Virus record (IMG/VR): IMGVR_UViG_3300017783_005078 | Location: 1 to 32,315 of that record | Direction: 5' to 3' (one strand) | From: a virus | DNA length: 32,315 bases | Part shown: positions 2,004-18,134 of the stretch, one piece after another | How the letters are laid out: the number at the start of each line of letters is the position of its first letter | How positions within the stretch are numbered: position 1 is the stretch's first letter | Position numbers and translations under genes: made by a program | Notes under the pieces: model-generated | Told to the model about the DNA's origin: nothing | The model's input: the letters and a program-made list of their open reading frames with translations, nothing else | The model's database searches: none

Positions 2004-3782
2004 TTATGCTCCAAAAGTTGCACCAGTTGGTTCTAAAGTAAAGTCTAGAACTATGAACTCTGCAGTTTTTGAAGGTTGTATAAAGATCTGGCCTATTAAT
2101 TGATTTCTATCGATTACATCGGCTGTATTATTAGTATCATCCATTACTACTCTAAATGCATACAATCCTTGTCTTTGTACTACTGAATCCAAGAATGGAT
2201 TAACTGCAGCTAAGAATTTGTTTCTAGTTGTAATAGTGTTCTGATCAAATACTAATGTATTAGCTTGATCTCCTACGAATTTTTTCAGTTCAATTAACAA
2301 TCTTCTTACGTTTACTCTATCTAAAGCAGAAGCTTTTTTCTGTAGTGTTTTCTGACCAAATACTGCAATACCTTGTCCAGGGAAAGTAGCGATTGGATTT
2401 ACATTACTTGAATATAAAGTATCTCTTTCAGATCTTGTTAATTTTCTTTCAGCTTGTAGTACTGTTGGAATACCTCCTCTTACTAATCCTGCTGGTGCAA
2501 ACCATGGTGCTGCTGCTCCATCTGTAAATGCATATACTCCTGGGATAGTTACTGAGGCTGGTACATATACGTTTTTACCTGTCGCACTGCCTACTTGAAC
2601 CCATGGCCAGTATGATGCTGCATAAGAAGAATTAATCTCAGATGCTTCAGCTGTTACTGTAGTGATTGCTCCTGTTCCATGAGTGACTAAATCTACTACT
2701 GCTATTGCATCTCCTCTATTCTCTGCTAAGGAAATAAGATTGTCAGTTTGTGTTGCACCGTTAGTTGCAAATGAATGTATTAATCCTGGTGCTGATATAA
2801 TGTTAAAGCTATATTCGTCTTTATTTTCTAGAATTGAAATAGCATCATTATAATCCTCTCCTATAAGTCCTTGAATACCTGCTGTAGCATTTGAAATATC
2901 TTTAAAGAAAAGAGCGTTATTGATAACGTTAGTTCCAGTTGCTCCGGCAAAACCTCCTGAGGCTGCTGTAGGTAGTGAAGCTGTATAGCTGTTTCCTGCT
3001 GCGTCAGTACTGATAGTTATTCCGTCGTTTTCTAGGTAGTCATTTGTCTTTTTGTGTACTGCTGATATTCTGATGTAGTTAGATCTGTTAGGATATTCTC
3101 CATCTGAAGTAAGGTATGTATTTGTACCATCAGAAGTTTTAGAAGTAGAAGCTGTACCAACTTGTTTTTCTATGTAATTATCTTGATTAGGATCTAAACT
3201 TAGATTACTGAATGTTTCAAGAATAATCTTACTCTTGTGATTATCATCTCCTCTTCTTACTAAAAGGGAAAAAGTACCTTTGTTTGTGTCAACGTTTGAA
3301 ATCTCCCATCTTACGTTATCAGATGAACCACTTTTAAGGTTACCATTTGAAAGTTCGTCTGTTGCTCCTACATAATCGCTACCAGTAACGTTATTGTATA
3401 GAATACCTTTACCTATCGTCTCTATACTTAATACGGCAGTCGCAGCAAATGCTCCTGAACCTGAAATTGGAGTTGCTGAAGCTGCTGCCCAATTGGACGA
3501 TCCAGACACAACTCTTGTAATTAATGCTGTTGTTCCACCTTGGTCAAAATAGTTTTTTACTGCTAGAGAAGTAAAATATTCAACTGAAGTAGACCCTGAA
3601 GTGAAAGTTCTTCCAAATTTTCTAGTGTATTCACCGAACGAAGTAACTGTTGTTGGTTGTTCGATTGGCCCGGTAACTGTTGGTCCAATAAAAGCTGCTC
3701 CTACTGCTTGTGGAGCAGGGGAAACGAAGGAAATATCGTTCTCTCTTGTCAGGATACCAGGTGAAATTATAGTCTCTGCCAT
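2004..3782 (-). CDS. Contractile tail sheath protein, gp18-like
   Basis: This 592-residue protein is the contractile sheath subunit of a myovirus tail. The N-terminus ISPGILTRENDIS resembles the arm that links neighbouring sheath subunits, followed by AFIGPTVTGPIEQPTTVTSFGEYTRKFG, a hallmark of the sheath family. The C-terminal 130 residues contain the conserved sheath core, including RRLLIELKKFVG, FDQNTITTRNKFLAAVNPFL, GLYAFRVVMDDTNNT and FIVLDFTLEPTGA. The variable middle part is Ser/Gly/Thr rich and probably forms exposed domains. T4 gp18 is a little longer (659 residues). It is followed by the tube gene, and in transcription order it comes right after the enzyme cassette and one small gene. 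Confidence 0.95.
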   Translation of the reverse strand: MAETIISPGILTRENDISFVSPAPQAVGAAFIGPTVTGPIEQPTTVTSFGEYTRKFGRTFTSGSTSVEYFTSLAVKNYFDQGGTTALITRVVSGSSNWAAASATPISGSGAFAATAVLSIETIGKGILYNNVTGSDYVGATDELSNGNLKSGSSDNVRWEISNVDTNKGTFSLLVRRGDDNHKSKIILETFSNLSLDPNQDNYIEKQVGTASTSKTSDGTNTYLTSDGEYPNRSNYIRISAVHKKTNDYLENDGITISTDAAGNSYTASLPTAASGGFAGATGTNVINNALFFKDISNATAGIQGLIGEDYNDAISILENKDEYSFNIISAPGLIHSFATNGATQTDNLISLAENRGDAIAVVDLVTHGTGAITTVTAEASEINSSYAASYWPWVQVGSATGKNVYVPASVTIPGVYAFTDGAAAPWFAPAGLVRGGIPTVLQAERKLTRSERDTLYSSNVNPIATFPGQGIAVFGQKTLQKKASALDRVNVRRLLIELKKFVGDQANTLVFDQNTITTRNKFLAAVNPFLDSVVQRQGLYAFRVVMDDTNNTADVIDRNQLIGQIFIQPSKTAEFIVLDFTLEPTGATFGA

Positions 3783-4189: not shown

Positions 4190-5371
4190 TTAACTTTCCA
4201 ACTTTAATCTAGTATTACCGTAATGTATAACCTTTATGTCTTTAACTGTTTTAAATGATCTCCACGGGTCTACTACTACTGAGCCATCTGGAAAATCATA
4301 ATCGTGGTGTTTACCCATATGTCCTAAAAGGTATACTGCTTTAATTGGCTGTACTGGGTCATATATTACTTTTTTAGTTGAACCGTAAGATTCACAGTAA
4401 TGGCCTACTAATATAGAAGATGAACCGTCTTTATAATGTACGTCAGGTTTATATGCTTCTCCTAATATTACAATTGGTAAATTAGCTTTGTCTGATTCTA
4501 TAACAAGTCTAGTAGCCATATTTTTAGCTTGCTTCTCTCTTGCTTCCATTATAGCGTCAAATAAATCGTAACCTAATCCTAACTCTTCGGCCATATACCT
4601 TAAAGCTATGTTATCTCTTGGATGGCATCCTCCTCCATCACCCATTCCTGCTTTCATGTAAGTTGGGCCTAATATACGGTAGGTAGATCTCTCTAATGCT
4701 CCAGTGACAACGTCTACATTCATGTTACCCCCTTTTTCTGCAACATCTTGAATCATATTAACTAAAGCTACCTTAGTAGATATAAATGTATTATAAAATA
4801 TTTTTATTGCTTCTGCCTCATCCCAAGTTCCTATCTCATATCTTGTACCTTTTGTAATAAAGGTTTCATAAAACTCTAATAATAGTTTAGCATCTCCTGT
4901 TGTAGACCCATCCTCAGTACCTATTATAATCATTTCAGGGTTAACCATATCCCATTTTACTGTACCCATTGCTATAAGGTAAGGATTGTAAATAAATCTA
5001 CCGTTTGGTATTCTACTTATAAACTCTTTTCTAATAGTACCGGGTAAAACAGTCGATATTAATACGACTAGCTGATCTTTATTAACGTGTTTATTTACTT
5101 CATCTAACACGTCATTAACTATACTATAGTCGAAATCTTTATTGGGTAAATGAGATGTTGGGTACCTACCGTCATAGTCTGGGTGATGCGGTGTAGGTAC
5201 TGCAATAAAAATAAGTTCACGGTTATGACATACGTCTTTAATCGTATATGCCATTTCAAATTTATCTGATGATGTTTCTGTTATGTCGTAACCTATTACT
5301 TCGTGTTTTTCCGCCATTACTTCGGCAGCGTCTTTTCCAAGTTTACCTATTCCTATAAAACCAATTTTCAT
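4190..5371 (-). CDS. UDP-glucose/GDP-mannose dehydrogenase family protein
   Basis: The 393-residue protein has the order of motifs of nucleotide-sugar 6-dehydrogenases, which oxidise a UDP-hexose to a UDP-uronic acid with two NAD. Residues 3-12 are a Rossmann NAD site (IGFIGIGKLG), 57-61 AVPTP, 106-112 STVLPGT, then AIKIFYNTF (Lys190, Asn194) and GDGGGCHPRDNIAL with the catalytic Cys249. The C-terminal Rossmann domain starts at about 299 (VILGEAYKPD); the usual DDxRxSP motif is changed to HYKDGSSS. It is the last gene of the enzyme cassette, separated from the GT-B-like gene by 15 bases, and would supply a uronic-acid donor to the glycosyltransferases encoded nearby. The exact substrate (UDP-glucose, UDP-GlcNAc, GDP-mannose) cannot be read from the sequence. 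Confidence 0.88.
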   Translation of the reverse strand: MKIGFIGIGKLGKDAAEVMAEKHEVIGYDITETSSDKFEMAYTIKDVCHNRELIFIAVPTPHHPDYDGRYPTSHLPNKDFDYSIVNDVLDEVNKHVNKDQLVVLISTVLPGTIRKEFISRIPNGRFIYNPYLIAMGTVKWDMVNPEMIIIGTEDGSTTGDAKLLLEFYETFITKGTRYEIGTWDEAEAIKIFYNTFISTKVALVNMIQDVAEKGGNMNVDVVTGALERSTYRILGPTYMKAGMGDGGGCHPRDNIALRYMAEELGLGYDLFDAIMEAREKQAKNMATRLVIESDKANLPIVILGEAYKPDVHYKDGSSSILVGHYCESYGSTKKVIYDPVQPIKAVYLLGHMGKHHDYDFPDGSVVVDPWRSFKTVKDIKVIHYGNTRLKLES

Positions 5372-5386
5372 AAAACTCTATTAAAT

Positions 5387-6379
5387 TTAATATAAATAGT
5401 TAAGAATGCCAAGGTCTATATTCAGCTTATAAGTAATATTATCATCGATATGCACCTTATTATCGTCTCTTAAAATTTCTTTAGCTTTATCAATATTAAA
5501 ATCAGCAATAGAATGCATACTTTTATCTATCTCCTGCAAGGGTAACTTAGATAAACGTAACAACTCTTTACTTAGTAGTTCAGCTCTACGAATATCGTCT
5601 TTTTCCGAGTCAAAAGTATAATCCACAACATTATCATAAAGTTTAAATCCTAAATTTTGTAAGCCTTTATTGATACCTTTAGCTCCATAAATAATAAATG
5701 GTTTACCAAGCAAGATAGGCTTAAATGTCTTTTCTGTATAAAAAATACATTGTGTAGTAGCTTCAGAAACTAAGTCAAACAAGCTTGTAAAATAGTGCTT
5801 TTCAGGTTTTAGATAGCTATTTCCTTCACTTTGATAATCATCTTTAGCTATTTTAGATTCTTCTTTCCAGTACTTAAATTTATATTCACCAGAATGTTCA
5901 TACTCTTTTGTATTTAAATTCCAAGAATAATTAGTATCATTAAGTAACTTTAACCGGGCAAGTTGATCCATAAGTATACATCTATGTTTATGAGGTCTAT
6001 TTACCTGCATATAAAATATCCTTTCTTTAATTTTATATTGATTATATTTATATTTCAACAGAGGGAAAGTATGATGTAAAAAGAAAGTAGGAAAAAACTT
6101 AACTTTAAAAGGAGATACGTGATTATTAAAATTAAATCTATAACTGTTTTCTGATAGAGAGCCGAGAAGTAAGAAAGCTTCTATTTTATGTTCTTTTATT
6201 ACCGTAACTATTTCTTTAAATTGTTGAGTCTCTATATTAGGGTTAAAATTAAACTCTGTTGTGCAGTCTAATATAAATACTTTAGGTGTTAATCTCTGTA
6301 TAGTATCTATTATAAGATCTTCACTATTCCATTCCCAAACATGAATTACTAGTAATCTATTAGCAGGATTATAAAACAT
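5387..6379 (-). CDS. Putative GT-B-like glycosyltransferase
   Basis: The 330-residue protein has no overall match I can name with certainty. The region at 200-230 (LFDLVSEATTQ then YTEKTFKPILLGKPFIIYG) follows the pattern of GT10 fucosyltransferase and exostosin-type GT-B proteins, where a (S/T)EKhh.shhxGxhPIhhG segment binds the nucleotide sugar. The N-terminal 110 residues look like an alpha/beta domain (LLVIHVWEW, KVFILDCTTEF, AFLLLGSLS), and the middle holds RIFYMQVNRPHKHRCILMDQL, also common in such proteins. It sits in the cassette between an SGNH-like protein and a nucleotide-sugar dehydrogenase, which supports a sugar-transfer role. The acceptor is unknown. Confidence 0.55.
   Translation of the reverse strand: MFYNPANRLLVIHVWEWNSEDLIIDTIQRLTPKVFILDCTTEFNFNPNIETQQFKEIVTVIKEHKIEAFLLLGSLSENSYRFNFNNHVSPFKVKFFPTFFLHHTFPLLKYKYNQYKIKERIFYMQVNRPHKHRCILMDQLARLKLLNDTNYSWNLNTKEYEHSGEYKFKYWKEESKIAKDDYQSEGNSYLKPEKHYFTSLFDLVSEATTQCIFYTEKTFKPILLGKPFIIYGAKGINKGLQNLGFKLYDNVVDYTFDSEKDDIRRAELLSKELLRLSKLPLQEIDKSMHSIADFNIDKAKEILRDDNKVHIDDNITYKLNIDLGILNYLY
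5391..5398 (-). promoter_or_regulatory. Candidate promoter box TATTTATA upstream of the dehydrogenase gene
   Basis: An exact TATTTATA lies on the coding strand 19 bases before the dehydrogenase ATG. It overlaps the last codons of the preceding gene, so the match could partly be coding. If real, it would give the dehydrogenase an extra start of transcription inside the cassette. Confidence 0.33.
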
Positions 6380-6383
6380 TAGC

Positions 6384-7046
6384 TCAAATATTTTTATAAA
6401 TTAATTCAGAGTATAGTTTATGTTGTTCAGTTGTAGGGTGGTCATCGTCACCTTTTTTTCTCATTTCGTTATCTAAACTAAATCTTTCTAAAGATGGATT
6501 TATCCAATATTCTTTAGAAGCATAATGTTTTAATATTTTACAAGATTGGCTAGATAAAAATTCTATAGTTTTTTTTCTAAGTATAGGTAAACTATATCCT
6601 GTAGGTTCTCCTGCAAAATAATCTATCCAAGGTTCAAACATATAAAACATATAAAGTTTAAATTTGTATTTATCTGAAAGTAAATTTAAATGATCTATGT
6701 AATTTACTAATTCTATTGCGTTTCCTTCAACACTAAAGTACTTATTAATATATTCTTTGTTAAAATTTTCATTATTATCTATTTGACCTAAATGTTGATA
6801 TGTGCTTCTTACTTTAATTAAATCATGACGAAGAAGTGAACTCCATTGAATAATAAAAGTATGGTTCGAAAGATCTTTATTTTTATTTGAATTAATATAA
6901 TCAGTAATAGTAATATACGAAAATTTTTGTCCAGAACCAGCTTCTCCTAAATTTTTAAACTCATCAAAATACTTAGATAAGTGATCTGCCCAAGTCTTAT
7001 ACCCATATTGAGTATAGCTGCATCCTGATGTAATAAGTTTTTTCAT
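6384..7046 (-). CDS. SGNH/GDSL-like hydrolase or acyltransferase
   Basis: The 220-residue protein begins MKKLITSGCSYTQYG, matching block I of SGNH hydrolases with Ser10 as the expected nucleophile, although the usual GDS is GCS here. Block II may be GEAGSGQ at 34-40. The C-terminal GDDDHPTTEQHKLYSELI (199-216) matches block V with the Asp/His pair (Asp200, His203). SGNH enzymes cleave or transfer ester groups, often acetyl groups on glycans. It overlaps the oxygenase gene by 4 bases and is one of two SGNH-like proteins in the cassette. A carbohydrate O-acyl esterase or transferase role is inferred from context. Confidence 0.65.
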   Translation of the reverse strand: MKKLITSGCSYTQYGYKTWADHLSKYFDEFKNLGEAGSGQKFSYITITDYINSNKNKDLSNHTFIIQWSSLLRHDLIKVRSTYQHLGQIDNNENFNKEYINKYFSVEGNAIELVNYIDHLNLLSDKYKFKLYMFYMFEPWIDYFAGEPTGYSLPILRKKTIEFLSSQSCKILKHYASKEYWINPSLERFSLDNEMRKKGDDDHPTTEQHKLYSELIYKNI

Positions 7047-7537
7047 CTCGTACCTGTTATTTGCAAAGTATACCTAGGTTGGATTCCAATATTACTAGCT
7101 GCATGCTCTATATCATAACTGTACATTACATAGTCTCCTTTATTCCAGCTATTAAAACTTGTTTTATTATACTCAAAATAATGACCAGGTTTCCAATCTT
7201 CTAAAAAAAGTATAGCCCTATATACTTCATTTTGTTCTTTATTAAATATTCTACAATAAGCTTCAAAATGATCATAATGAGGAGGCATAATATCTAAAGT
7301 ATCCATTTTATAAAAAGTATACCCGCAGTTTTTTAAACCTATAGCGTTACTTATGTCTTTAGTCCATCTAGGCATAGGATTTTTGCTGCTGTATAAGGCC
7401 CCTGTAAAGCTTTTATGATAGTATCCTTTTTCTCTCCATCTATTAACTTCACTTTCTTTGATAGGCTGTTTAGTATAGTCGAAGGTAAAGAACTCATTTC
7501 CTACTAAAGTACGTTTTATGTTATCAACTTTTATCAT
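7043..7537 (-). CDS. 2-oxoglutarate/Fe(II)-dependent oxygenase-like protein
   Basis: The 164-residue protein fits the short double-stranded beta-helix oxygenases frequent in marine phages. The metal triad can be placed as His87 and Asp89 in PPHYDHFE and His145 in DIEHAASN, with Arg155 in QPRYTLQIT as the 2-oxoglutarate carboxylate binder. Strands between them (YRAILFLEDWKPGHYFEY, WNKGDYVMY) follow the prolyl-hydroxylase-type order. The enzyme would hydroxylate a protein side chain or a small molecule. It is joined by ATGA overlaps to the amidinotransferase gene before it and the SGNH-like gene after it, which suggests that it acts in the same modification route. The substrate is not known. 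Confidence 0.78.
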   Translation of the reverse strand: MIKVDNIKRTLVGNEFFTFDYTKQPIKESEVNRWREKGYYHKSFTGALYSSKNPMPRWTKDISNAIGLKNCGYTFYKMDTLDIMPPHYDHFEAYCRIFNKEQNEVYRAILFLEDWKPGHYFEYNKTSFNSWNKGDYVMYSYDIEHAASNIGIQPRYTLQITGTR

Positions 7538-8544
7538 AATCTTATCATATCAGCAGTACAACAATGGAAAGAACCTCCTAACGTCCTAGAATGTCTTATT
7601 TTTAAGTCTAACGCTTCAATATTATATTTTTTTAACTCTTTGATTAATTCTTTCTGTCTATTATCAACTATTACTGTATTTTCATCTAGAGAAATAAGAT
7701 TTATACCCACCCATTCAGACGCTCTCAATACTCCTTTATACCCAATATCTATCATCGGAGGAGAATATATAATATCCCATCCTTTGAATAGTTCTGGCAT
7801 ATTTTTTTCGCTAACTCTTGCCGGATTAACAAGTGCTAGACCGTCTCTAAGAATAGCAATCGTAGAATCAATATGAGAATACGAATACATATTTTCTAAG
7901 TAATGTACCTTATATTTATCTCCTAGCAAATTCTTTAACCAAGTATATCCTTTATAGTTTCCTGTGTTAGAATTAAGATAGAGAATATCATCATTATGTC
8001 TGAGTATATTAGCTGCATCAAATACAGGTTCTACTTCAGTTAATGTAAGTTTATCTAAATCGTCTCTTTGATATGAATCGTCTGTTAATCTAGGTTTAGG
8101 AGCACATATCCATTTAGCTCCTTTATCCATATAATCAATAAACAGCTCTCTATAAGCATCAGTTTCAAACTGTCTAGACCTTAACGTCATAGGTGATTCT
8201 ATAATGGTATCTCCAATGACTGTCATAGTATCTCTTGGGCAGAATGTATAGTATTGATCTGTTTTCCAATAACCGTTAGAGACAGTTTTTTTAGTATCTA
8301 ATATATTTGGTCTATGTACTATAGCTCCAAAGTCTTTTAGAGCTTCTGCTAATAAATCTAGGTCTTCAATAGACTCTTCATATACTTGAGGATCAAATAA
8401 ACCTCTTTCTGAGGAAGGAATAGTGTCTTTGTCTGCATAATTAATTGCATGAAGATCAAAACCGTGATGAGGTTGGTTTGCATTATCTACTCTTCCGACT
8501 ATTACCTCTTTTAAAGTACTGTATTCGTTCTGTATACTAACCAT
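7534..8544 (-). CDS. Amidinotransferase (glycine/inosamine amidinotransferase family)
   Basis: The 336-residue protein is a member of the amidinotransferase family, which moves the amidino group of arginine onto an amine to make a guanidino group. It has the expected length and the full set of sites: EYSTLKEVIVGR at the start, FCPRDTMTVIGDTIIE (101-116), Asp176 in VFDAANIL, His224 in YSHIDST and Cys328 in TLGGSFHCC, corresponding to the Asp-His-Cys active site of human AGAT and StrB1. The bacterial enzymes StrB1 and StrB2 act on aminocyclitols in streptomycin synthesis. A DegT-type aminotransferase lies just upstream, so an amine made there could be guanidinylated here. The start at 8544 gives a 34-base overlap with the SGNH gene but is needed for the conserved N-terminus. 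Confidence 0.88.
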   Translation of the reverse strand: MVSIQNEYSTLKEVIVGRVDNANQPHHGFDLHAINYADKDTIPSSERGLFDPQVYEESIEDLDLLAEALKDFGAIVHRPNILDTKKTVSNGYWKTDQYYTFCPRDTMTVIGDTIIESPMTLRSRQFETDAYRELFIDYMDKGAKWICAPKPRLTDDSYQRDDLDKLTLTEVEPVFDAANILRHNDDILYLNSNTGNYKGYTWLKNLLGDKYKVHYLENMYSYSHIDSTIAILRDGLALVNPARVSEKNMPELFKGWDIIYSPPMIDIGYKGVLRASEWVGINLISLDENTVIVDNRQKELIKELKKYNIEALDLKIRHSRTLGGSFHCCTADMIRL

Positions 8545-9224
8545 TGTTGAAATTTGCTATTATTATAAATTAAATTTGATATTTTTTCATGACCTTTTAC
8601 GTTAGGGTGAGTAACATTACCTTCAAAGTATTCACCTACAAAGCAACTTGTCTCTAGACCGTCAACGTTAAGGCTGCTAGGTACTATACCTAAATCATAT
8701 CCTCCTAAAAATGTAGTTAAACTAGTATCTATCAAAAAGTTGGATTTATCTATCTTGCCGTTAAATTTAAAGTTATTATCTATACTACCGTAATTAGTGA
8801 AGAATAAAAAACTAACTCCTATTTTAGTTAAATATTCTTGTATACAAAATAAATTTAAAAGTTGAAAATAAGGATGCCAATTTTTATGTTCAACTATTAC
8901 TTCAGTATAGTAATCAAACTGTTTTTGTATAAATTTATCAGGGTGTTTTGATGTTGAAGAAAATAAAGATATAAATACTCCATCTTCTGTTTCACCTATA
9001 AATCTAATATCCGGTGGTATACATACTAATACAAAGTCATCCTTACTTATATCATATGTAAGTACTTGACTACATATAACTGAAAAGGAATTGCCTTTTT
9101 TGCCAAAGTTACTGTAAGGTCCTTTTGCTTTTTCACTTAATAATTTAGTATAGCATTCCTTTACAGGACTTTTTAATTCATCTCCATAGGTCCAACTGTC
9201 CCCAAACGATATAATTTTACTCAT
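8511..9224 (-). CDS. SGNH-like hydrolase/acyltransferase with altered block V
   Basis: The 237-residue protein begins MSKIISFGDSWTYGDEL, a clear SGNH block I with nucleophile Ser10. GKKGNS at 41-46 resembles the block with the oxyanion-hole Gly/Asn. The C-terminal GNVTHPNVKGHEKISNLI (202-219) matches block V, but at the expected Asp of DxxH there is Asn203, while His206 is kept. Thus it may be an atypical enzyme or use a Ser-His dyad. It shares only the fold-level motifs with the other SGNH-like protein in the cassette, so the two probably serve different ester groups. It overlaps the aminotransferase gene by 8 bases. Confidence 0.72.
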   Translation of the reverse strand: MSKIISFGDSWTYGDELKSPVKECYTKLLSEKAKGPYSNFGKKGNSFSVICSQVLTYDISKDDFVLVCIPPDIRFIGETEDGVFISLFSSTSKHPDKFIQKQFDYYTEVIVEHKNWHPYFQLLNLFCIQEYLTKIGVSFLFFTNYGSIDNNFKFNGKIDKSNFLIDTSLTTFLGGYDLGIVPSSLNVDGLETSCFVGEYFEGNVTHPNVKGHEKISNLIYNNSKFQQWLVYRTNTVL

Positions 9225-9822
9225 TGAATATTTTCATTTTAGTTAATTCTGGGTAGTCTTTATAGGACCTTATTTTAGGTTTTCTACTTATAGCGTCTTG
9301 CAATTTACTTACTCCTATTTCAGCTGTTTCCGGAGTCATATAGTAATGGTATCCTATAGTCTCTATATCTTGTTCAGCCCAAGGTTTGTCAAACGTTCTA
9401 CCATCATATGTCATTTTACGTAGTTGTTCAGCTGCTTCTTTATTATCTGTTAATATCATTCCTCCTCTACCTAAGTTTAAATGCTTTTTGAATTGAAACG
9501 AAAGTACCATAAAAGTTCCAGATATATAGCTATTCTGCTCCCAAAGGACGGCTGCATCTATTATGTTGTCTGTGATGTAGTAGTATTTACTCCATTCTTG
9601 TGACGTCCATACTCTTTTTATGTCTAATTTATCTGACAGCATAGGTATGGACAGGTAGGTATGTTTAGGTACTATTATTTCTTTAGTATTTAATAACCTA
9701 AGGCATAATTCTAGTCCATGAGTACAACAGTCTACTGCTACTCCATACGGTGCATTAAACCATTCTGCAACTTTATTTTCAAATAATGTTATCCCTTGAA
9801 ATGAACTGCAATTTATATTCAT
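9217..9822 (-). CDS. Half-length DegT/DnrJ/EryC1-type aminotransferase-like protein
   Basis: The 201-residue protein resembles the large domain of DegT-type PLP aminotransferases, which make amino sugars and aminocyclitols. Signs are LFENKVAEWFNAPYGVAVDCCTHGLEL (13-39), IIDAAVLWEQN (Asp89, expected to contact the PLP ring nitrogen), the Lys site in SFQFKKHLNLGRGGMILTD (Lys112 or Lys113), and YMTPETAEIGVSKLQ (161-175). Family members are usually 360-400 residues; this one stops where the C-terminal small domain would begin, so it is either a minimal form or a functional fragment. The first ATG gives a 44-base overlap with the upstream gene, but it is needed to keep the family's N-terminal helix. 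It lies near the amidinotransferase gene. Confidence 0.75.
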   Translation of the reverse strand: MNINCSSFQGITLFENKVAEWFNAPYGVAVDCCTHGLELCLRLLNTKEIIVPKHTYLSIPMLSDKLDIKRVWTSQEWSKYYYITDNIIDAAVLWEQNSYISGTFMVLSFQFKKHLNLGRGGMILTDNKEAAEQLRKMTYDGRTFDKPWAEQDIETIGYHYYMTPETAEIGVSKLQDAISRKPKIRSYKDYPELTKMKIFNE

Positions 9823-10786
9823 TTTTATTATGATTTGCGTAATTTAATTTATTATATTCATTATGTACTCTTCCTAAATTCATTTCACTTTTCGCAAAAG
9901 TTAGAGGGTGTCCACCGATATATCTAGCCATATAGCTCCAAGAAGATGGTGGGCTATGAATTATTGTTTCAGTATAGCTCAAACTAAAAAAATCTATTAA
10001 GTCATACCCCATATCTTTTAACTGTAGTCTAGGATCTAGAAATTTTGCGTCGTTAAGTATTTTTTTATTTTCTTTAACAATATCTTTGCAGGTTTTTATC
10101 CTACCGGGGTATTTAGTTCTGTAGTATTCGATAGCATTCTCATCAACATCTATTCCTATAAAAAACTTTGCATTTTTATCTTTTTTAATTAGGTCATCTA
10201 TTATATCAAAATAAATTTGATCTCTTATAAAAGGGTAGTTTTTATCACATTTAGTACATAGTTTATAGTACCTCATGTAAGGTTTAGGTATGGATAATTT
10301 ATCATAATGGTCTAAATATACCCCGTTTCCTCTTCTTATATGAATACCAGTACGGCCCTGTACTGTGGCTTTTATTTTTTCGTGAATAATTTTATTTTTT
10401 ATTTTCACAGAACTAAAAGTATCTGTTTTTGGATCAAAAAAAGCTAGAACCAGATCTAGAGTATTTCCGTAATTAAAAGCATTAGTGTACGATAGTTGAT
10501 TATTTAATTTTATTTTATCATTTTTTATCCATTCTTCAACTTCTATATCTACAATAGGAGTAGTTTTTTTATTTATTTCATATAGAGTAGTATATTCAGT
10601 ATTTGGAAAATCTATTAAAGTAAGTTCGGGAAACTCTTCAGGTAGTACTTTTATTATATGGTTGTTACCCATACTTTTATTTAGTATACAAGCTGCCAGC
10701 CAGGTAAACAATCGGTTTCCCCAACCAGAATCTTTATTCTTCACGTCATCCCAGGGGTCTCTTAAAAATATTGTAGGTCTAGACAT
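9779..10786 (-). CDS. Fucosyltransferase-like protein (GT11/O-FucT-type)
   Basis: The 335-residue protein has the two patterns that mark GDP-fucose-using transferases of the GT11, GT23 and GT65 group: an N-terminal GWGNRLFTWLAACIL (21-35, like GxGNQxFxxxxA) and a central GIHIRRGNGVYLD (147-159, like HxRRGDY, the GDP-fucose-binding motif). A C-terminal DFFSLSYTETIIHSPPSSWSYMA matches the family's third motif with Ser-rich end. It therefore probably transfers fucose or a related deoxyhexose in the cytoplasm. It overlaps the upstream radical SAM gene by 8 bases. No GDP-fucose synthesis genes are in the window, so the donor must come from the host or from elsewhere in the phage. Confidence 0.7.
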   Translation of the reverse strand: MSRPTIFLRDPWDDVKNKDSGWGNRLFTWLAACILNKSMGNNHIIKVLPEEFPELTLIDFPNTEYTTLYEINKKTTPIVDIEVEEWIKNDKIKLNNQLSYTNAFNYGNTLDLVLAFFDPKTDTFSSVKIKNKIIHEKIKATVQGRTGIHIRRGNGVYLDHYDKLSIPKPYMRYYKLCTKCDKNYPFIRDQIYFDIIDDLIKKDKNAKFFIGIDVDENAIEYYRTKYPGRIKTCKDIVKENKKILNDAKFLDPRLQLKDMGYDLIDFFSLSYTETIIHSPPSSWSYMARYIGGHPLTFAKSEMNLGRVHNEYNKLNYANHNKNEYKLQFISRDNII

Positions 10787-12011
10787 ACTTTTTTAATTCA
10801 GGGTAATTTTTTCCTACTATATCAAATGTAGATTCTTTTCTATACCTATCTAAAATAGTAAACTTATTATATTCTATCTTTAACTCTTTTTCTTTTGGCT
10901 GAGTGCTATACATGAACTTAATCAAGCCGTCAATATCTGTTTGGTTGGATCCCCAGTCGTGTTTATCCCATTTACTTTTTATTCTATCTTTTGTTTCAAC
11001 TGGGAGAGTATATAGGCACATATGGGAAGCGTTGTGTATTACATTTATCCATAGTGAGAATTCCGGTGTATGTTTTTTAATCCAATCGTCAAACTCAGGC
11101 AATTCGTAAGCATTTATCCAAGATAAGGTGTACGTGTAGTTAAAAAATAGTTTATCTAAGTGTATGTACTCTTTATACAGTGAATAAAAGTTAAAAATGT
11201 TTAACTTCACTTTTTCCCATTCAGCATTTTTTCTCAAATACTCAAATGTAGTTCCAAATCCATCTATACTTAAACCTATCCCTACCTGTTTAAAGTTATC
11301 TGCAATTCTTCTTAATAGTGCCTCGTTACATAAAGTACCATTAGTAGACATATTTAAAGTTATATCTTTTGCGAATCCTTTTTTAATCATTAATTCCCAA
11401 GCATTTTCCCAGTTTTTAGTGTAAAAAGGTTCTCCTCCAACAATTTCTATTCTTTTAGCATAGGGTAACCATTCTTCCATTGAAGTTATAAATTCACTCT
11501 TTGTTCCTCCAGCCTGTCCGTGTGGTAATTCGTAAAGGTGATTACTAATGCCGCTTATGTCCGACGAAGGCATGGTTTTTAGTTCTTTATACCATTCAGT
11601 ACTGTGGGAACTACCACAGCTCCTACACTTTAAATTACAGGCATTAGTTAGTATAACTTGAAAATCGATTGGATATTCAGATAAAGGTTTTTTCTCTAAA
11701 TTTTCGGGGGTTGCCCATTCTCCTAAGTGGTCTTTAATAATTTTATTATAATTTTCTCTCTTAGAAGTATACCCATTTTCTTCATCTTTCCAGCATACTT
11801 CACAATTTTTAGGCTTTTTGCCTTGAGTAAATTCTTCTCTAAGATTATTCATATAGTCACTATGAAATATATCTTTAATGTTATCTAATTGAGTATAATA
11901 ATTGCTTCCATCAGGTTTGGTAACTTGTTCTTTTGAAATACAACAAGGACGAATTGAACCGTCCGGGTCGTTAGAAAAGCCTACCCAGGGAATGGCACAT
12001 AAACTTTTCAT
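10779..12011 (-). CDS. Radical SAM protein with N-terminal twitch/SPASM-like domain (copy 5, CC type)
   Basis: The 410-residue protein carries a radical SAM core with the [4Fe-4S] motif CNLKCRSC (Cys125, Cys129, Cys132) and the SAM-binding GGEP at 192-195. In front of it is a Cys-rich domain with Cys5 (CAIPW), Cys23-Cys24 (RPCC), and Cys70/Cys73 (NCEVCW), a pattern seen at the C-terminus of SPASM enzymes but placed N-terminally here. Such enzymes modify peptides or sugars by radical chemistry; the substrate of this architecture is unknown to me. It is the last of five radical SAM genes and is joined to the next upstream one by an ATGA overlap. Confidence 0.88.
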   Translation of the reverse strand: MKSLCAIPWVGFSNDPDGSIRPCCISKEQVTKPDGSNYYTQLDNIKDIFHSDYMNNLREEFTQGKKPKNCEVCWKDEENGYTSKRENYNKIIKDHLGEWATPENLEKKPLSEYPIDFQVILTNACNLKCRSCGSSHSTEWYKELKTMPSSDISGISNHLYELPHGQAGGTKSEFITSMEEWLPYAKRIEIVGGEPFYTKNWENAWELMIKKGFAKDITLNMSTNGTLCNEALLRRIADNFKQVGIGLSIDGFGTTFEYLRKNAEWEKVKLNIFNFYSLYKEYIHLDKLFFNYTYTLSWINAYELPEFDDWIKKHTPEFSLWINVIHNASHMCLYTLPVETKDRIKSKWDKHDWGSNQTDIDGLIKFMYSTQPKEKELKIEYNKFTILDRYRKESTFDIVGKNYPELKKYV

Positions 12012-13249
12012 ATAACTTTAATTTTAAATTTATCTTTATATGGTTCCCATTCGGGTAAATAATCGTAAATTTTTACGTTCCTTGTTCTATCCATAATTCT
12101 TATAAATGAATAGAATCTATCTGCATCTCTAAAATTTGGTTTTCTATCTAATTCAACTTTAAGTTTATGTATTTCATGTTCTTCTAAATACTTTATATTA
12201 CTTAAAATTTTAGCTTTCATTTCATCAGGTATTAAACTAACATGCATATGATCAGGGTAATGAACATAATTATGGGCAATAAATAGATTACTATCGTCAG
12301 CAAACTTTTTAAAATTATCTATATTAAAAACATTTAAACAGCTTACTGTTTGACATAATTCTAAAGTAAATATATCTCGATACTTTAATATCTTATTTAA
12401 GGACTTCATTATTTGATTCCAATCTGAGGGGAAACGAACATAGTAGTTTCTTTCTTCGATATCATCTATAGATAAATGAATTCTAATATTTTTAAAGTTT
12501 TTCCAAATTTCAATAAACTTATCAGGGAACTGAGTGCAATTTAAACTGTAGTGTAGATCAATATCCTTAGAAGACCCATCTTCAATAAATTTCTCTAAAA
12601 AATAACCGTGCTCTTTAATTAAAGTTGGTTCTCCACCATTAATCCAGATTTCCTGCAAGTTGTCACATTTAGAATAAAGTTCATCATAGAACTTATAGTC
12701 CCTATACCATTCAGTTTTTATGTCTACTTTATAATAATCATTTTCGAACTCTGTTCCTTTTAGACCAGGTAGGTCTTGATGCCACCTGTTAGATGAGAAT
12801 GGATTACAAGTAGTACACTTTAAATTGCATACGGTACCTAATCTTAATTCAACGTATTTGTAATTAACTTTTATTAAACTTCCATCTGGGTTTGTGTTAG
12901 GGAGACAGTCTTTGATATGTTTTGCATATAATGTGTTAGCTTCTTGCCTTTTAGATCCTACACCTTGGTCTTCATACTTAAAACATTTTTGACATACTAG
13001 CGGTTTTACTCCGTTCATCATATCTTTACGTACTGCTTTAAATCTTTTAGAGTTAGTTATAGATTCTAAGCTATCTTTAGAAAGAAATAAATGTTCTTTA
13101 TCACTCTCCTCTGTAGTAGCTGTGGACATGCTGTTTTTCATTTCTGTCACACAGCAAGGGGTAACTGTCCCGATAGGGTGAGTAGCTAAGTGTATCCATG
13201 GAAGAACACAGAAACTATCTTTTATATTATCTGTTTGTTGTTCCACCAT
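12008..13249 (-). CDS. Radical SAM protein with N-terminal twitch/SPASM-like domain (copy 4, CC type)
   Basis: This 413-residue protein has the same layout: Cys14 (FCVLPW), Cys32-Cys33 (PCC), Cys86/Cys89 (CQKC), then the radical SAM motif CNLKCTTC (Cys141, Cys145, Cys148) and NGGEP at 204-208. Between the two domains runs a basic linker with KRFKAVRKDMMNG. The C-terminal half (LHYSLNCTQFPDKF, IRIHLSIDDI) shows the repeating strand pattern of a partial TIM barrel. The start at 13249 overlaps the previous gene by 28 bases; no later ATG would retain the first cysteines. Function is inferred only as radical-based modification linked to the surrounding glycan genes. Confidence 0.88.
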   Translation of the reverse strand: MVEQQTDNIKDSFCVLPWIHLATHPIGTVTPCCVTEMKNSMSTATTEESDKEHLFLSKDSLESITNSKRFKAVRKDMMNGVKPLVCQKCFKYEDQGVGSKRQEANTLYAKHIKDCLPNTNPDGSLIKVNYKYVELRLGTVCNLKCTTCNPFSSNRWHQDLPGLKGTEFENDYYKVDIKTEWYRDYKFYDELYSKCDNLQEIWINGGEPTLIKEHGYFLEKFIEDGSSKDIDLHYSLNCTQFPDKFIEIWKNFKNIRIHLSIDDIEERNYYVRFPSDWNQIMKSLNKILKYRDIFTLELCQTVSCLNVFNIDNFKKFADDSNLFIAHNYVHYPDHMHVSLIPDEMKAKILSNIKYLEEHEIHKLKVELDRKPNFRDADRFYSFIRIMDRTRNVKIYDYLPEWEPYKDKFKIKVI

Positions 13250-14571
13250 TTGTATACTTTTTTATTATGTTTTAAATATATTTCGTTCAATACATTTTCA
13301 TTTTTTCTCCACTTATCTACTCTATGTAGGTTGGCTTTTCCCTTTTTTAGGCCCTCTTCCCAGTTGGGGTACTGTTCTTGGAAGGTTGGACGGTTTTTTA
13401 AATCTTCTAAACATTCAATCCAATTAGAGTGTTTCTCATTTCCTATTAATTTAGGTTTTATATAGTCTATTATGTCATCTAAGACTTCATTATATAGAAC
13501 TCTAGGTAGTACCTGAGGGCACATCATTATAGTGCTATCAAAAGCAAATGTAGTTTTAATTAAAGTATTTACATCTAATTCTACAGCTAAGTCAAATAGT
13601 TCTTTAAGGCTGAAAAGGCCTGGTGTAGTAATTGTAAGATCAAATGCTATTCCGTAATCACCATATTGTTTGTTTAGGAAAATATAATCTTTAAAGTTTT
13701 TAATCCAACTTTTCCATTTAATTCCATGTCTAACATATTCAACTATATCTCCTGTTCCATCAATTGAGGCACATATCTGTACTGTCTTAAAATGAGGTAA
13801 CATATCTTTTAAATCCCAATGTTTGTAAGTAGTTCGACTAAAGTTTGTATTGTATCGAATCCATACGTTTTTAGCTAGGTCATTGTCAATTAAATATTGC
13901 ATAATTTCCCAATGTATTTCCCACATAAGAGGTTCTCCACCAACCCAGTATATCTCTTCAATAGTGCCGTTCTTTACTGCTTCCCATAATTCAGCTTCTG
14001 CTACATCACGTTGAAAGTTTTCGATTGCTGGTTTGTTTTTCTTTTGAGCCCAAAAGTCGGTATTGCCATCACTATCGTAGTCTCCCATTTGTCTTCTTTC
14101 AGATTCCCATGAAGAAGAGAGCTGGTCCCCGCACATCCTACACTTAAAGTTACATAGGTTTCTAACTCTATAATCAAATGAAATAGGTACCATTTTAGTA
14201 TAGCCTGTTTCATCTGTTTTTTCAAAAGCTTCTTCTATCTTATTAGGAAATAACGTTTTATTAAAGTAATCACGGTAAATAGATATGTTAAGGAGTTTAC
14301 CGTTACACACCTGACATTGAGGTATTTCATTACCTGCCAAAAGGTCTTTTCGTATACCTTTCATATAATCTGAGTTCCAGTGATCTTTTAATGTGCCAGG
14401 ATTATATTGAGAATTTTGATCTGCATTTTCAGAGTCTAAGTACTGGGTAGCCCATTCTGCTTTTTCTCTAGAAGCACAACACATCCTTCTTTCACTTTGT
14501 GGTGAAAGATAGGTATGGGTAAATGGAGCCATACAGAAAGTTTTATTTCCATCTTTTGGTTTTACTTTCAT
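13222..14571 (-). CDS. Radical SAM protein with N-terminal twitch/SPASM-like domain (copy 3, CC type)
   Basis: The 449-residue protein has Cys13 (FCMAPF), Cys31-Cys32 (MCC), Cys86/Cys89 (CQVC), the radical SAM cluster motif CNFKCRMC (Cys140, Cys144, Cys147) and GGEP at 211-214. Later strands such as WIRYNTNFS and QICASIDGTGDIVEYVRHG follow the radical SAM barrel; the phrase EYVRHG is shared with copy 2 (AEYIRHG) and copy 1 (AEYVRYG), which ties the five proteins together. It starts within an ATGA overlap with copy 2. A second overlapping frame inside it is only a shadow. Confidence 0.88.
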   Translation of the reverse strand: MKVKPKDGNKTFCMAPFTHTYLSPQSERRMCCASREKAEWATQYLDSENADQNSQYNPGTLKDHWNSDYMKGIRKDLLAGNEIPQCQVCNGKLLNISIYRDYFNKTLFPNKIEEAFEKTDETGYTKMVPISFDYRVRNLCNFKCRMCGDQLSSSWESERRQMGDYDSDGNTDFWAQKKNKPAIENFQRDVAEAELWEAVKNGTIEEIYWVGGEPLMWEIHWEIMQYLIDNDLAKNVWIRYNTNFSRTTYKHWDLKDMLPHFKTVQICASIDGTGDIVEYVRHGIKWKSWIKNFKDYIFLNKQYGDYGIAFDLTITTPGLFSLKELFDLAVELDVNTLIKTTFAFDSTIMMCPQVLPRVLYNEVLDDIIDYIKPKLIGNEKHSNWIECLEDLKNRPTFQEQYPNWEEGLKKGKANLHRVDKWRKNENVLNEIYLKHNKKVYKWWNNKQII

Positions 14572-16193
14572 ATGGCAGTTTTCCCTTTGTTAACCTCTGA
14601 GACCTTTTTACGCCCTTTTTGAAGGTCTGCAACTAAGTCTATCATATCATCTTGTTGTTGTTCGTCTGGTTCTATATAGCCTTTTGATCCTGGGTTGGTC
14701 CACTGTGGATTAAGTACCCATCCTTCATCTTTAGCTTGCTGTAAAACCCCAGTAACGTATTTATTAGACTTAGCATCATCTCCATCTATAGCTTTAATAA
14801 GAGGAGTTAAATTAGTATCTGGTATACTTTCATACCATGCTCTTAATTCAGGGAATGCTTTTAGAAAGTCTTTTCCTCTTCTTTTATCATACTGTTGATA
14901 AAAAGATTTAAAATCTCTTTCTCTAGTTTCTAATGAAGATGTAAATTCATGACCAGTATCAACTTTTCTAATGTATTCTATTAACCTTAATAGTCCATCT
15001 CTTTCTATATCGAGAAATCCATTAGAGCCTTCATTCCAGTGATCGTTTACCCACTTTTCTATAACAGCAGCTCGTTCTAATCTTATATTAGTAGGGAGAG
15101 TAACTATAGACTGAAAAGAAGGAAAGCGTAAAATATTAAAAGACATTACTGCTGCATGGGGTCCGAATACTTTTTTTAATTGCATCATTTCATCCATAAA
15201 TTCAGTAATAGAAAATAAACACAAACTGTTTATAGTCATCATTACATTTACTGATTCTAAATTAGCTTCTTTATTAATCCTGTACATATTTTTTAACCAT
15301 ATATTCCACTCTAAACCATGTCTAATATATTCAGCTTGTAAACCAACAGCTTCGCAAGAACTATAAATACTAAATTTTTTAATGTTATGTGAAGCATCTA
15401 TTAATGCATCTAATAATTTTTTCTTTTGACCTAAATTTGAATTGACTGCGAATGGAACTTTACAGTTAGGATTATCTTTCCACCAATCCATTAATTTCCA
15501 GAAGTCAGGAGACATAGTAGGTTCTCCTCCGGTTACCCTTAATTCTCTTAAACTATATTGAAGTTCTGCTTCCCACCATTTCCAAAATGCTTCTACATAA
15601 GGATTGCCTTCATTTTTTCTTCCAAAAGGCATAGCATGAGAACCGTCATGTTGGAATGCTCCTGCTCCATCAGATACTAAATTTTGATAAGGCCCGTTTT
15701 GCTTTATATCTTTTTGCCAAGTAGTACTAAAAGAAGAGTTACAGTATGAACAAGCAAAATTACAATTAGCATCGAAAGCAATTTCTAAAGTCTTAAGGTC
15801 AACATCTTCTGTATAACCCATGGTTTCTTTAGCATCTTTTAATTCTTCATCCGTATATATAACTGATTTATATACTCTATCTGAGATTTTATCTTTTCCT
15901 AGATCTTCTATTTTCCAGCAGTATTCACATTCTTTAGGTCTAATACCTTCCATCATCTGCTTACGTACAGCTTTCTTATACTTTGTGTTATGCAGTGCTT
16001 TATAGCTAAATTTTAATTCATCTAAGGGTATCTTATGTGCAGGAGGGTGATGACAAGATGTTGTCTGCCCATTACCTAACCAAATAGTAGCATTATACCA
16101 TTTAGCACCGCAGAATGAAGGAGATAATTTATCTACAACCCTGTCTCTGTACTCTTGATGAGTTTCATCATCTTTTTTAGCGTATATACCCAT
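14568..16193 (-). CDS. Radical SAM protein with N-terminal twitch-like domain (copy 2, CHHP type)
   Basis: At 541 residues this is the longest of the five. Its N-terminal domain has Cys28 (FCGAKW), Cys47 in SCHHPPAHKIPL instead of the CC pair, and Cys89/Cys92 (ECEYCW). The cluster motif is CNFACSYC (Cys144, Cys148, Cys151) and the SAM motif GGEP is at 222-225. The N-terminal half is closely similar to copy 1: both have SCHHP..HKIPL.ELK, ALHNTK.KK, R.QMM and EC.YCW..ED, so they look like paralogues. Copy 2 has an extra C-terminal extension of about 70 residues, polar and with DEQQQDDMIDLVADLQKG, that copy 1 lacks. It starts in a TAATG overlap with the LamG-like gene. Confidence 0.9.
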   Translation of the reverse strand: MGIYAKKDDETHQEYRDRVVDKLSPSFCGAKWYNATIWLGNGQTTSCHHPPAHKIPLDELKFSYKALHNTKYKKAVRKQMMEGIRPKECEYCWKIEDLGKDKISDRVYKSVIYTDEELKDAKETMGYTEDVDLKTLEIAFDANCNFACSYCNSSFSTTWQKDIKQNGPYQNLVSDGAGAFQHDGSHAMPFGRKNEGNPYVEAFWKWWEAELQYSLRELRVTGGEPTMSPDFWKLMDWWKDNPNCKVPFAVNSNLGQKKKLLDALIDASHNIKKFSIYSSCEAVGLQAEYIRHGLEWNIWLKNMYRINKEANLESVNVMMTINSLCLFSITEFMDEMMQLKKVFGPHAAVMSFNILRFPSFQSIVTLPTNIRLERAAVIEKWVNDHWNEGSNGFLDIERDGLLRLIEYIRKVDTGHEFTSSLETRERDFKSFYQQYDKRRGKDFLKAFPELRAWYESIPDTNLTPLIKAIDGDDAKSNKYVTGVLQQAKDEGWVLNPQWTNPGSKGYIEPDEQQQDDMIDLVADLQKGRKKVSEVNKGKTAI

Positions 16194-16777
16194 TATATCT
16201 TATGTACAAAATTTAAATTACCTGTTGTGTCTACATACTTATCGAATATTCTTTCCTCAAAAAAATGATCACTTAAAATCTTTCCATCCTGAGATAAAGT
16301 AAATCTAAGAAGATCAAAGTCAGTATAATTTAAGTTAAAATTATTTTTTGGAAAGTTACCTGCTCCAATTATTATATGTGGGGATTCATTAATACCAAAT
16401 ACTTTATTTTCCATAGATTCGTTTACTACAACTTCGTTATTAATAAATATTTTAAAATAAAGTTTAGGTTTATGATCAAACTTTACTACTGTATGTTTAT
16501 CAACAGGTATAGGAAAAGGTAATCTATAATACCTTGGTTTATCTTCATAAGTTATTGTGATAACAGTTTCTTCTGGGTATAAATCTAAACCTGTATACCT
16601 AGGAACTAAAGTAAATATAGTTTTTTGGAGTCTAGAATTATCCCTTAATATAAAATCAAAAGAAAACTCAAACGAATGTTCTCCGGTTAATAAGAGATTA
16701 GAAGGATTAGAAGGAAAAGTATCACAAATACTGCTAGGCCAAAATAACCAAGGTTCTCCTTTATTTATTTTCAGCAT
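16193..16777 (-). CDS. Free-standing LamG/concanavalin-like jelly-roll protein
   Basis: The 194-residue protein is almost entirely beta strand and lacks enzyme motifs. Strands such as SFEFSFDFILRD, TIFTLVPRYTGLDLY, ETVITITYED, HTVVKFDHKPKLYFKIFINNEVV, and the final LLRFTLSQDGKILSD are in the order of LamG/concanavalin-type lectin domains, where an IFTL...GL.L segment and an '(Y/F)hNG' type strand recur. Similar domains seem to be inserted in the two GT7 genes just upstream. It lies between the two CHHP-type radical SAM genes, overlapping one by 17 bases and the other by 1. A carbohydrate-binding or scaffold role is inferred; no signal peptide is present. Confidence 0.55.
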   Translation of the reverse strand: MLKINKGEPWLFWPSSICDTFPSNPSNLLLTGEHSFEFSFDFILRDNSRLQKTIFTLVPRYTGLDLYPEETVITITYEDKPRYYRLPFPIPVDKHTVVKFDHKPKLYFKIFINNEVVVNESMENKVFGINESPHIIIGAGNFPKNNFNLNYTDFDLLRFTLSQDGKILSDHFFEERIFDKYVDTTGNLNFVHKI

Positions 16778-18134
16778 ACATATTAGTTAACTGGGGAAAT
16801 GTATCAGAAAAACTAGTACCTCTTCTCTTATCATACTCCTCAACAAATTTAAAAAACTCTTTCCTACTTTTTTCTTGATCATAAATTACACTATTACCTA
16901 TTGCATAATCATATGTTCGTTTAATTTTCTGTATTTCTACGTTTGAAAATCCATAGTTATTATTAGTAAATTCTTTTATACCGTAGTATAAAGCTTTCTC
17001 AGCAGATTTTAGTATTAACTCTTTATGTTCTTTATCTAATATTCTCACAGACATAAAAGAAGGCCACCTTAAGTAAGATGTATCCAACTGTATAGCTGAT
17101 ACCCAGTATCTTTTGCCGTTGGCATATTTCTTTTTCAATTTAAAAACCCTATCAATAACTTTATCATAAGTAAAAACCGATAGTGCGTTAAAAGTAGCCA
17201 TAACATTTATAGTTACTTTTGGTAATTTAGTAAGTATTTTATTTACATTAGACCAAAATTTATCAGCTTGTAATCCATATCTTACATATTCAGCTTGTTT
17301 TTCGTCTCCCTCAATAGAAGTAAATACTATTAACTCTCTTACTTTATTATTATTACATAAGTCTGTTGCTATCTCTATAAATCTATCAATAAGTTTATCT
17401 GGTACTCCTAAATTTGTATTGATTGCTAAAGATATATTACTATTCTCTTTATAATTTTCTTGTATATATTCTAATACTTTAAAAGTATCTTTAGATAATA
17501 AAGGTTCGCCGCCAGTAATTCTGAAAGTATGAAGATCTTTAAACATATCTGGCCACCATTTCCAAAAAGCTTCTATATAAGGATTGTGTTCTGAATGTTT
17601 ATAAGGAAATTCATTTTTTTTCTTTAAAAATTCTATATCGTTATAATTATTTACTTGTTTATACCCTCCATGATTCTCTATTTCTTCTACCCATTTAGAT
17701 GAATACTGAGGACCACAATAAGCACAAGCAAAATTACAAGTATTTGAAAAAGATACTTCTACATATTTAGGATTAAAGTTATCTTCCCAGTCTGAATTAA
17801 CTATATTATCGAATTGTGATATTGACCAAGGTTCAGATGATTTAAAAACTCTATCTGAATAAGAAGTAGAATTATCTTCTACATTCCAGCAGTAATTACA
17901 TTCAGATGGTTTTCTATTATTCATCATCTGTCTGCGTTTCATTTTTTTATGCTTAGTATTATGTAAAGCAGTAGGATTACTCTTTAATTCTTCTAATGGA
18001 ATTTTATGAGGAGAAGGATGGTGACAGGAATGAGTCATACCGGTACCAAGATGCATAGTAACTTGGGTCCATTTAGCTAAACAGAACCCTTTTCCAACTG
18101 AATCTAATTTATTCTTTACTTCTAGATTGGTCAT
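16761..18134 (-). CDS. Radical SAM protein with N-terminal twitch-like domain (copy 1, CHHP type)
   Basis: This 457-residue protein is the first radical SAM gene in transcription order. It has Cys18 (FCLAKW), Cys37 in SCHHPSPHKIPL, Cys79/Cys82 (ECNYCW), the cluster motif CNFACAYC (Cys133, Cys137, Cys140) and GGEP at 208-211. EAFWKWWPDMFKDLHTFRITGGEP is nearly superimposable on the same region of copy 2 (EAFWKWWEAE...LRELRVTGGEP), and both end with a YDKRRG(T/K) segment. The CHHP change removes one of the two cysteines seen in the CC type, so any auxiliary iron-sulfur cluster would be bound differently. It is coupled to the GT7 gene by an ATGA overlap. Confidence 0.9.
   Translation of the reverse strand: MTNLEVKNKLDSVGKGFCLAKWTQVTMHLGTGMTHSCHHPSPHKIPLEELKSNPTALHNTKHKKMKRRQMMNNRKPSECNYCWNVEDNSTSYSDRVFKSSEPWSISQFDNIVNSDWEDNFNPKYVEVSFSNTCNFACAYCGPQYSSKWVEEIENHGGYKQVNNYNDIEFLKKKNEFPYKHSEHNPYIEAFWKWWPDMFKDLHTFRITGGEPLLSKDTFKVLEYIQENYKENSNISLAINTNLGVPDKLIDRFIEIATDLCNNNKVRELIVFTSIEGDEKQAEYVRYGLQADKFWSNVNKILTKLPKVTINVMATFNALSVFTYDKVIDRVFKLKKKYANGKRYWVSAIQLDTSYLRWPSFMSVRILDKEHKELILKSAEKALYYGIKEFTNNNYGFSNVEIQKIKRTYDYAIGNSVIYDQEKSRKEFFKFVEEYDKRRGTSFSDTFPQLTNMYAENK

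Follow-up and report, generated by a model that had tools for sequence, protein, structure and literature searches.

A compact aminotransferase of the DegT family and an amidinotransferase (AMT throughout) are encoded within one overlapping run of minus-strand genes on a 32,315-nucleotide stretch of viral DNA (IMG/VR record IMGVR_UViG_3300017783_005078, positions 1 to 32,315; hereafter the window). The run is best read, with a probability of roughly 0.55, as a sugar-tailoring module in which the DegT enzyme would aminate a keto sugar and the AMT would cap the resulting amino group to yield a guanidino sugar destined for a glycan. The initial annotation had likened the pair to the logic of streptidine synthesis, an interpretation that is partly supported. 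The pair is real and conserved, and the logic of an aminotransferase that makes an amine and an AMT that caps it is the best supported reading, whereas the predicted product is probably a guanidino sugar rather than streptidine. The central genes are the following:

7043..7537, minus strand: Fe(II)/2-oxoglutarate (2OG) oxygenase and third member of the module, with the HxD..H..R residues kept and a P4H/AspH-type fold.
7534..8544, minus strand: StrB1-like L-arginine amidinotransferase of 336 aa, a full-length match to 1bwd, with D176/H224/C328.
8511..9224, minus strand: SGNH/GDSL-like protein of 237 aa between the pair, with the motifs GDSWTYG and HPNVKGH seen by eye and no match in Pfam.
9217..9822, minus strand: compact DegT-family pyridoxal phosphate (PLP) aminotransferase of 201 aa (PF01041, E 1.5e-18).

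Both families thus lie where the initial annotation had placed them, with a third gene between them and a DegT of half the usual size. Labels consisting of L and a number denote the loci compared.

The amidinotransferase

None of Pfam, NCBIfam and PHROGs assigns the gene to an amidinotransferase family, and the assignment comes from a sequence search of the PDB, in which the protein matched StrB1 (1bwd) over its full length (phmmer E 2.8e-89, residues 1-335). HsvA, AGAT and SxtG came next at E 1e-58 to 1e-52 (human AGAT about 1e-54), and the search gave zero matches to arginine deiminases. The residues Asp176, His224 and Cys328, already singled out in the initial annotation, align with D254, H303 and C407 of AGAT and with D179, H227 and C332 of StrB1, and this catalytic triad is invariant in the 26 viral AMTs aligned, the window protein included. 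The arginine-site residues of AGAT (D170, D305, R322 and S355) are likewise kept in 26/26, and arginine is strongly indicated as the amidino donor.

The acceptor loop before the catalytic His reads S-Y-M in 23 and S-Y-S in 3 of these viral proteins; elsewhere it is N-P-M (AGAT) or A-S-T (StrB1), with T at the last position in 10/10 members of the StrB1 clade. Muenchhoff 2012, as cited in PMC3684758, described two positions of the acceptor loop as determinants of specificity in CyrA, and the roles of AGAT N300 and M302 are taken from the citing article (PMC3684758). The tree places AGAT and HsvA outside, behind a branch with a support of 97, and the viral AMTs form deep groups beside the clade holding StrB1, none of them inside it. 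Because of this position and of the acceptor loop, the window protein is predicted from its sequence to be a StrB1-side amidinotransferase with an acceptor pocket of its own. It does not group with AGAT/GATM and does not keep the N300/M302 pair, nor does it belong to StrB1 proper, given its place outside that clade and a loop unlike A-S-T. Grouping with glycine-specific enzymes or with arginine deiminases, either of which would have spoken against the initial annotation, did not arise.

These results bear on the idea of an AMT that produces guanidinoacetate or a similar small metabolite, as in a creatine-type metabolism, next to an unrelated DegT. A guanidinoacetate N-methyltransferase has been reported as a viral gene in a marine survey (PMC11360552), and some phage homologues carry a glycine amidinotransferase annotation. 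However, the supported branch that places AGAT and HsvA outside, the replacement of AGAT acceptor residues N300-P301 by the invariant pair S221-Y222, and the co-inheritance of the AMT with DegT render this explanation improbable.

A true aminocyclitol pathway, in which DegT would yield scyllo-inosamine and the AMT would amidinate inosamine phosphate as in streptidine synthesis, is also unlikely. StrB1 is the closest solved relative of the AMT, and DegT with StrB1 is the exact streptidine pair, as found on a Streptomyces plasmid whose streptidine-type set consists of a full-size DegT, a streptomycin biosynthesis protein, a StrB1-type AMT, an oxidoreductase and a phosphotransferase. Aminocyclitols are oxidised by twitch-type radical S-adenosylmethionine (SAM) enzymes such as BtrN, and many AMT loci have radical SAM genes nearby. 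Against this pathway, Gfo/Idh/MocA dehydrogenases (PF01408) and APH-type kinases (PF01636) were each found in 0 of 11 AMT phage records, which include one complete genome, with control genomes positive for both; the viral AMT lies outside the StrB1 clade and carries S-Y-M/S in place of A-S-T; and sister DegTs adjoin a GDP-mannose 4,6-dehydratase.

The compact DegT aminotransferase

The DegT protein scores 67.7 bits with PF01041, against a curated cut-off of 19.8. Its 201 aa are about half the usual ~370 aa and do not hold a full C-terminal domain. The gene is nonetheless not broken, since the length recurs across about 150 viral loci (195-207 aa in most of them) and the PLP lysine K113 and the pyridine-N aspartate D89 are invariant, as is S108, in 52/52 aligned sequences; the fold is shortened, not truncated. 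An AlphaFold2 model was obtained with a pLDDT of 92, and its nearest folds are nucleotide-sugar aminotransferases, with about 190 of the 201 residues aligning over about 300 of the full-length chains. Rows from phage records were left out of the alignments behind the two structure predictions made in this work.

Co-inheritance of the two genes

A compact DegT is encoded in 74 of 80 viral AMT loci; dereplication at 95% leaves 43 loci, 38 of them with it. The two also occur together, along with a 2OG oxygenase and glycosyltransferases, in the distant isolate S-SCSM2R, so that the lack of co-occurrence that could have undone the initial annotation was not encountered. The converse association is weak, with an AMT in 11 of 80 DegT loci. 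Among bacterial AMT loci (n=80), a weak full-size DegT match is present in 10 and the compact form in none, and no common sugar pathway was recognised by eye in the bacterial neighbourhoods L178, L180, L181, L184, L185, L186, L189 and L237. Pairwise distances of AMT and DegT are correlated (Mantel r 0.83 for n=37, a value reached in none of 2000 permutations): the two genes co-evolve and are inherited together across many viruses. The order is DegT followed by AMT, often with a few-base overlap, or with a 2OG oxygenase, SGNH-like or radical SAM gene in between. The pair is directly adjacent in most close relatives, and the SGNH-like gene intervenes in the window.

Six AMT loci are without a compact DegT. 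In two of them (L084 and L091) the sequence ends shortly upstream of the AMT, and in L042 the contig edge still holds part of a DegT gene, which leaves L037 and the pair L078/L090 as the informative exceptions. L078 and L090 carry a true GDP-mannose 4,6-dehydratase just upstream of the AMT (L090:7024-8957, where the two genes overlap), and no DegT was found within these contigs of 8-24 kb. A further gene upstream of the AMT in L090 (cluster 44) was guessed to be a full-size DegT, a candidate rejected once its sequence had been read and gave no Pfam match. As a separate observation, the unverified 'Enterococcus phage' record L015 (OR846605) has surroundings that resemble, by eye, a bacterial chromosome, with MutS2-like and alkaline phosphatase genes.

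The same counts can be set against the view that the two genes are mere neighbours that travel as cargo in a variable glycan island and act on unrelated molecules. The run is located ahead of the sheath gene on its upstream side, in a position comparable to that of the variable g15-g18 island of T4-like cyanophages (PMC2984593), and the remaining cargo around the pair is highly variable. Yet the compact DegT accompanies the AMT in nearly all AMT loci although the AMT is found in so few DegT loci, and the genes overlap, show congruent distances and follow one clean split on the DegT tree; mere neighbourhood is thus held to be improbable.

A proposed exchangeable amine decorator

Compact DegTs are also found without an AMT, and 66 of 70 such loci hold a gene that reaches at least 200 bits with a hidden Markov model (HMM) of GDP-mannose 4,6-dehydratase, usually right after DegT; one of these dehydratases matches PF16363 at E 1e-116. 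The viral family of half-size DegTs adjoining a dehydratase is a large one (L098-L177, for instance L137:7998-9565). Across 56 dereplicated DegT loci of this kind, the decorating enzyme is a hexapeptide acetyltransferase in 20, a methyltransferase in 17 and a formyltransferase in 7, with none in 12 and never two together, and these labels switch at least 12 times on the DegT tree. None of the 87 AMT loci carries an acetyl-, methyl- or formyltransferase. Since the sister loci hold at most one decorator and the AMT loci none of the three, the AMT seems to fill the amine-decorator slot. The dehydratase adjoining the sister compact DegTs makes a 4-amino-4,6-dideoxyhexose the most likely class of sugar. 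A short-chain dehydrogenase/reductase (SDR) cluster near the AMT was at first read as GDP-mannose dehydratase as well, and this reading was dropped when the dedicated HMM showed distant SDRs.

The third partner and a rival reading, peptide tailoring

The 2OG oxygenase gene is present in 35 of 46 AMT loci and in 0 of 56 others. Its iron triad HxD...H and its 2OG-binding Arg (H87, D89, H145 and R155) are invariant in 23/23 sequences, and its pairwise distances track those of AMT and DegT equally (r about 0.83-0.84). A PDB sequence search with its profile returned nothing useful; fold comparison did give relatives, namely P4H and AspH, with their double-stranded beta-helix. Radical SAM genes with a CxxxCxxC motif are near 31 of 46 AMT loci, as opposed to 7 of 56 others. 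A carbamoyltransferase gene (PF02543/PF16861; cluster 9) was also observed near the AMT in 16 of 46 loci, such as L031, L032, L035 and L050.

Such neighbours could instead point to peptide or protein tailoring, in which radical SAM enzymes, 2OG oxygenases and the AMT would build or modify guanidino side chains. The frequency of radical SAM genes at AMT loci, the P4H/AspH-like fold of an oxygenase found at most of them, and the Campylobacter phages, which combine an AMT and radical SAM genes without a compact DegT (PMC2853527), all favour this alternative. It is nevertheless unlikely, as the most constant partner of the AMT (38/43) is the compact DegT, of the sugar-aminotransferase type, and the module is surrounded by glycosyltransferases.

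Proposed action of the module

For the guanidino-sugar module, the compact DegT would transfer an amino group to the ketone of a sugar, probably nucleotide-linked. The StrB1-like AMT would then move the amidino group of L-arginine, via Cys328, to the new amine, releasing ornithine together with the guanidino sugar. The Fe/2OG oxygenase may tailor this sugar unit or help to prepare it, and the adjoining glycosyltransferases would attach the guanidino sugar to a glycan, either on the virion or on the surface of the infected cell. Confidence is good that the DegT product is the AMT acceptor, and moderate, from genomic context, that this acceptor is a sugar and not a cyclitol; the location of the glycan and the source of the keto sugar are inferred. 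As the AMT phages are without the dehydratase, the ketone would have to be supplied by the host or by some other oxidation in the phage, and it could be speculated that the 2OG oxygenase or a radical SAM enzyme prepares it for DegT.

Several observations weigh against this proposal. The dedicated HMM detected a GDP-mannose 4,6-dehydratase in 0 of 87 loci with AMT and compact DegT, and the 11 whole AMT phage records hold only distant SDRs and no true dehydratase. AMT-linked and dehydratase-linked DegTs are split by one branch of the DegT tree; together with the missing dehydratase, this split suggests that the ketones used by the two DegT types may differ, and it makes the replacement of an acyltransferase by the AMT a single event. 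The fold ranking of DegT among GDP-, UDP- and dTDP-sugar enzymes carries no substrate information, the Z values being tied. Finally, L037 has an AMT without surrounding sugar genes, and the Campylobacter phages hold distant AMTs without any compact DegT.

A wider version of the proposal can be put forward only tentatively. According to it, a dedicated and co-inherited viral module of three enzymes (compact aminotransferase, 2OG oxygenase and AMT) might make a guanidino deoxy sugar for glycans, with the amine decorator as an exchangeable slot for acetyl, formyl, methyl or amidino groups.

The virus and the layout of the run

The source virus is T4-like. Its host is probably a marine member of the Bacteroidota. 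The tail sheath shares 66.6% identity with its counterpart in Flavobacterium phage immuto, which points to that phylum. This phage, the nearest named relative by sheath, encodes a distant compact DegT of its own, with genes for a 'pilin glycosylation protein' and an epimerase after it (L258:7968-10043).

The genes of interest are all on the minus strand and overlap one another. In the order of transcription, two glycosyltransferase family 7 (GT7) genes come first, followed by five radical SAM genes interrupted by one unknown gene, a putative HxRRG glycosyltransferase, the compact DegT, the SGNH-like gene, the AMT and the 2OG oxygenase; then come a second SGNH-like gene, a putative glycosyltransferase, a gene of the UDP-glucose dehydrogenase type, the tail sheath and the tube. 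The run is therefore upstream of g18, as is the cyanophage island mentioned above. The remaining features are:

2004..3782, minus strand: T4-type tail sheath (gp18; PF04984).
4190..5371, minus strand: nucleotide-sugar dehydrogenase of the UDP-glucose 6-dehydrogenase type (PF00984/PF03721; TIGR03026 E 1.7e-45, under its cut-off).
5387..6379, minus strand: TEK-motif protein, a putative glycosyltransferase of cluster 4 of the AMT loci, family assigned by eye.
6384-7046, minus strand: second SGNH-like gene, by eye.
9779..10786, minus strand: putative fucosyltransferase-fold glycosyltransferase with an HIRRG motif, overlapping the DegT gene (weak POFUT2 profile match, E 0.013; HxRRG invariant).
10779..12011, minus strand: radical SAM protein with an N-terminal twitch domain (NF033640, E 4.1e-80).
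12008..13249, minus strand: radical SAM protein with an N-terminal twitch domain (NF033640, E 7.6e-102).
13222..18134, minus strand: three more radical SAM genes (13222-14571, 14568-16193 and 16761-18134; PF04055, two of the three under the curated cut-off) and one unknown gene.
18131..20916, minus strand: two GT7 (galactosyltransferase-type) genes (PF13733, PF02709).

The cluster 4 glycosyltransferase is present in 18 of 46 AMT loci and in 0 of 56 others, and profile searches gave no solved relative for it; for the gene at 9779-10786 they gave the one weak solved relative listed and none better. The stretch 10779-18134 amounts to a single run of five radical SAM genes. Long extensions at the C-terminus mark the tandem GT7 genes, one of which has a Laminin_G_3-like match; such genes are uncommon for phages.

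Comparison with known systems

In the literature searched, no paper linking a phage DegT with an amidinotransferase and no description of a guanidino sugar in phage or host-surface glycans was found. If the proposal is right, the virus makes a cationic sugar that would alter the surface charge of the virion or the cell, with possible effects on adsorption, superinfection or recognition.

With StrB1, the L-arginine:inosamine-phosphate amidinotransferase of Streptomyces, the viral AMT shares full-length homology, the triad, the arginine site and a short loop before the catalytic Asp; it differs in clade, in the acceptor loop and in the absence of the streptidine dehydrogenase and kinase. AGAT/GATM has the fold family, the triad and the arginine-binding residues in common with it, but the two are separated by a supported branch, N300-P301-M302 is replaced, and the longer loop of AGAT is absent.

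GDP-perosamine synthase and other DegT nucleotide-sugar aminotransferases (3bn1, 3dr7, 7b0m, ArnB and WlaRG) share the PLP lysine, the aspartate and a core fold of about 190 residues with the compact DegT, which is half as long and, in its AMT-linked members, is without an adjoining GDP-mannose 4,6-dehydratase. The half-size family and its one-decorator slot offer many natural enzyme pairs for comparing N-acetyl, N-formyl, N-methyl and N-amidino decoration of sugars.

Among phages, CP220 and CPt10 of Campylobacter likewise have an AMT homologue amid radical SAM and transferase genes; a 2010 paper noted in each a cluster that combines a putative glycine amidinotransferase with five radical SAM genes (PMC2853527). 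However, the Campylobacter phage AMTs (L013, L016) are distant, at 25-30% identity, and the compact DegT is absent from the two genomes searched (F379 and CP20). A further parallel is Synechococcus phage S-SCSM2R, for whose gene set no paper was found in the literature searched. It holds the same set of compact DegT, 2OG oxygenase and AMT with glycosyltransferases, at an AMT identity of 42.5%, and its depositors annotated an 'inosamine amidinotransferase' and a '3-amino-5-hydroxybenzoic acid synthase'. As an isolated phage, S-SCSM2R makes the guanidino-sugar idea testable.

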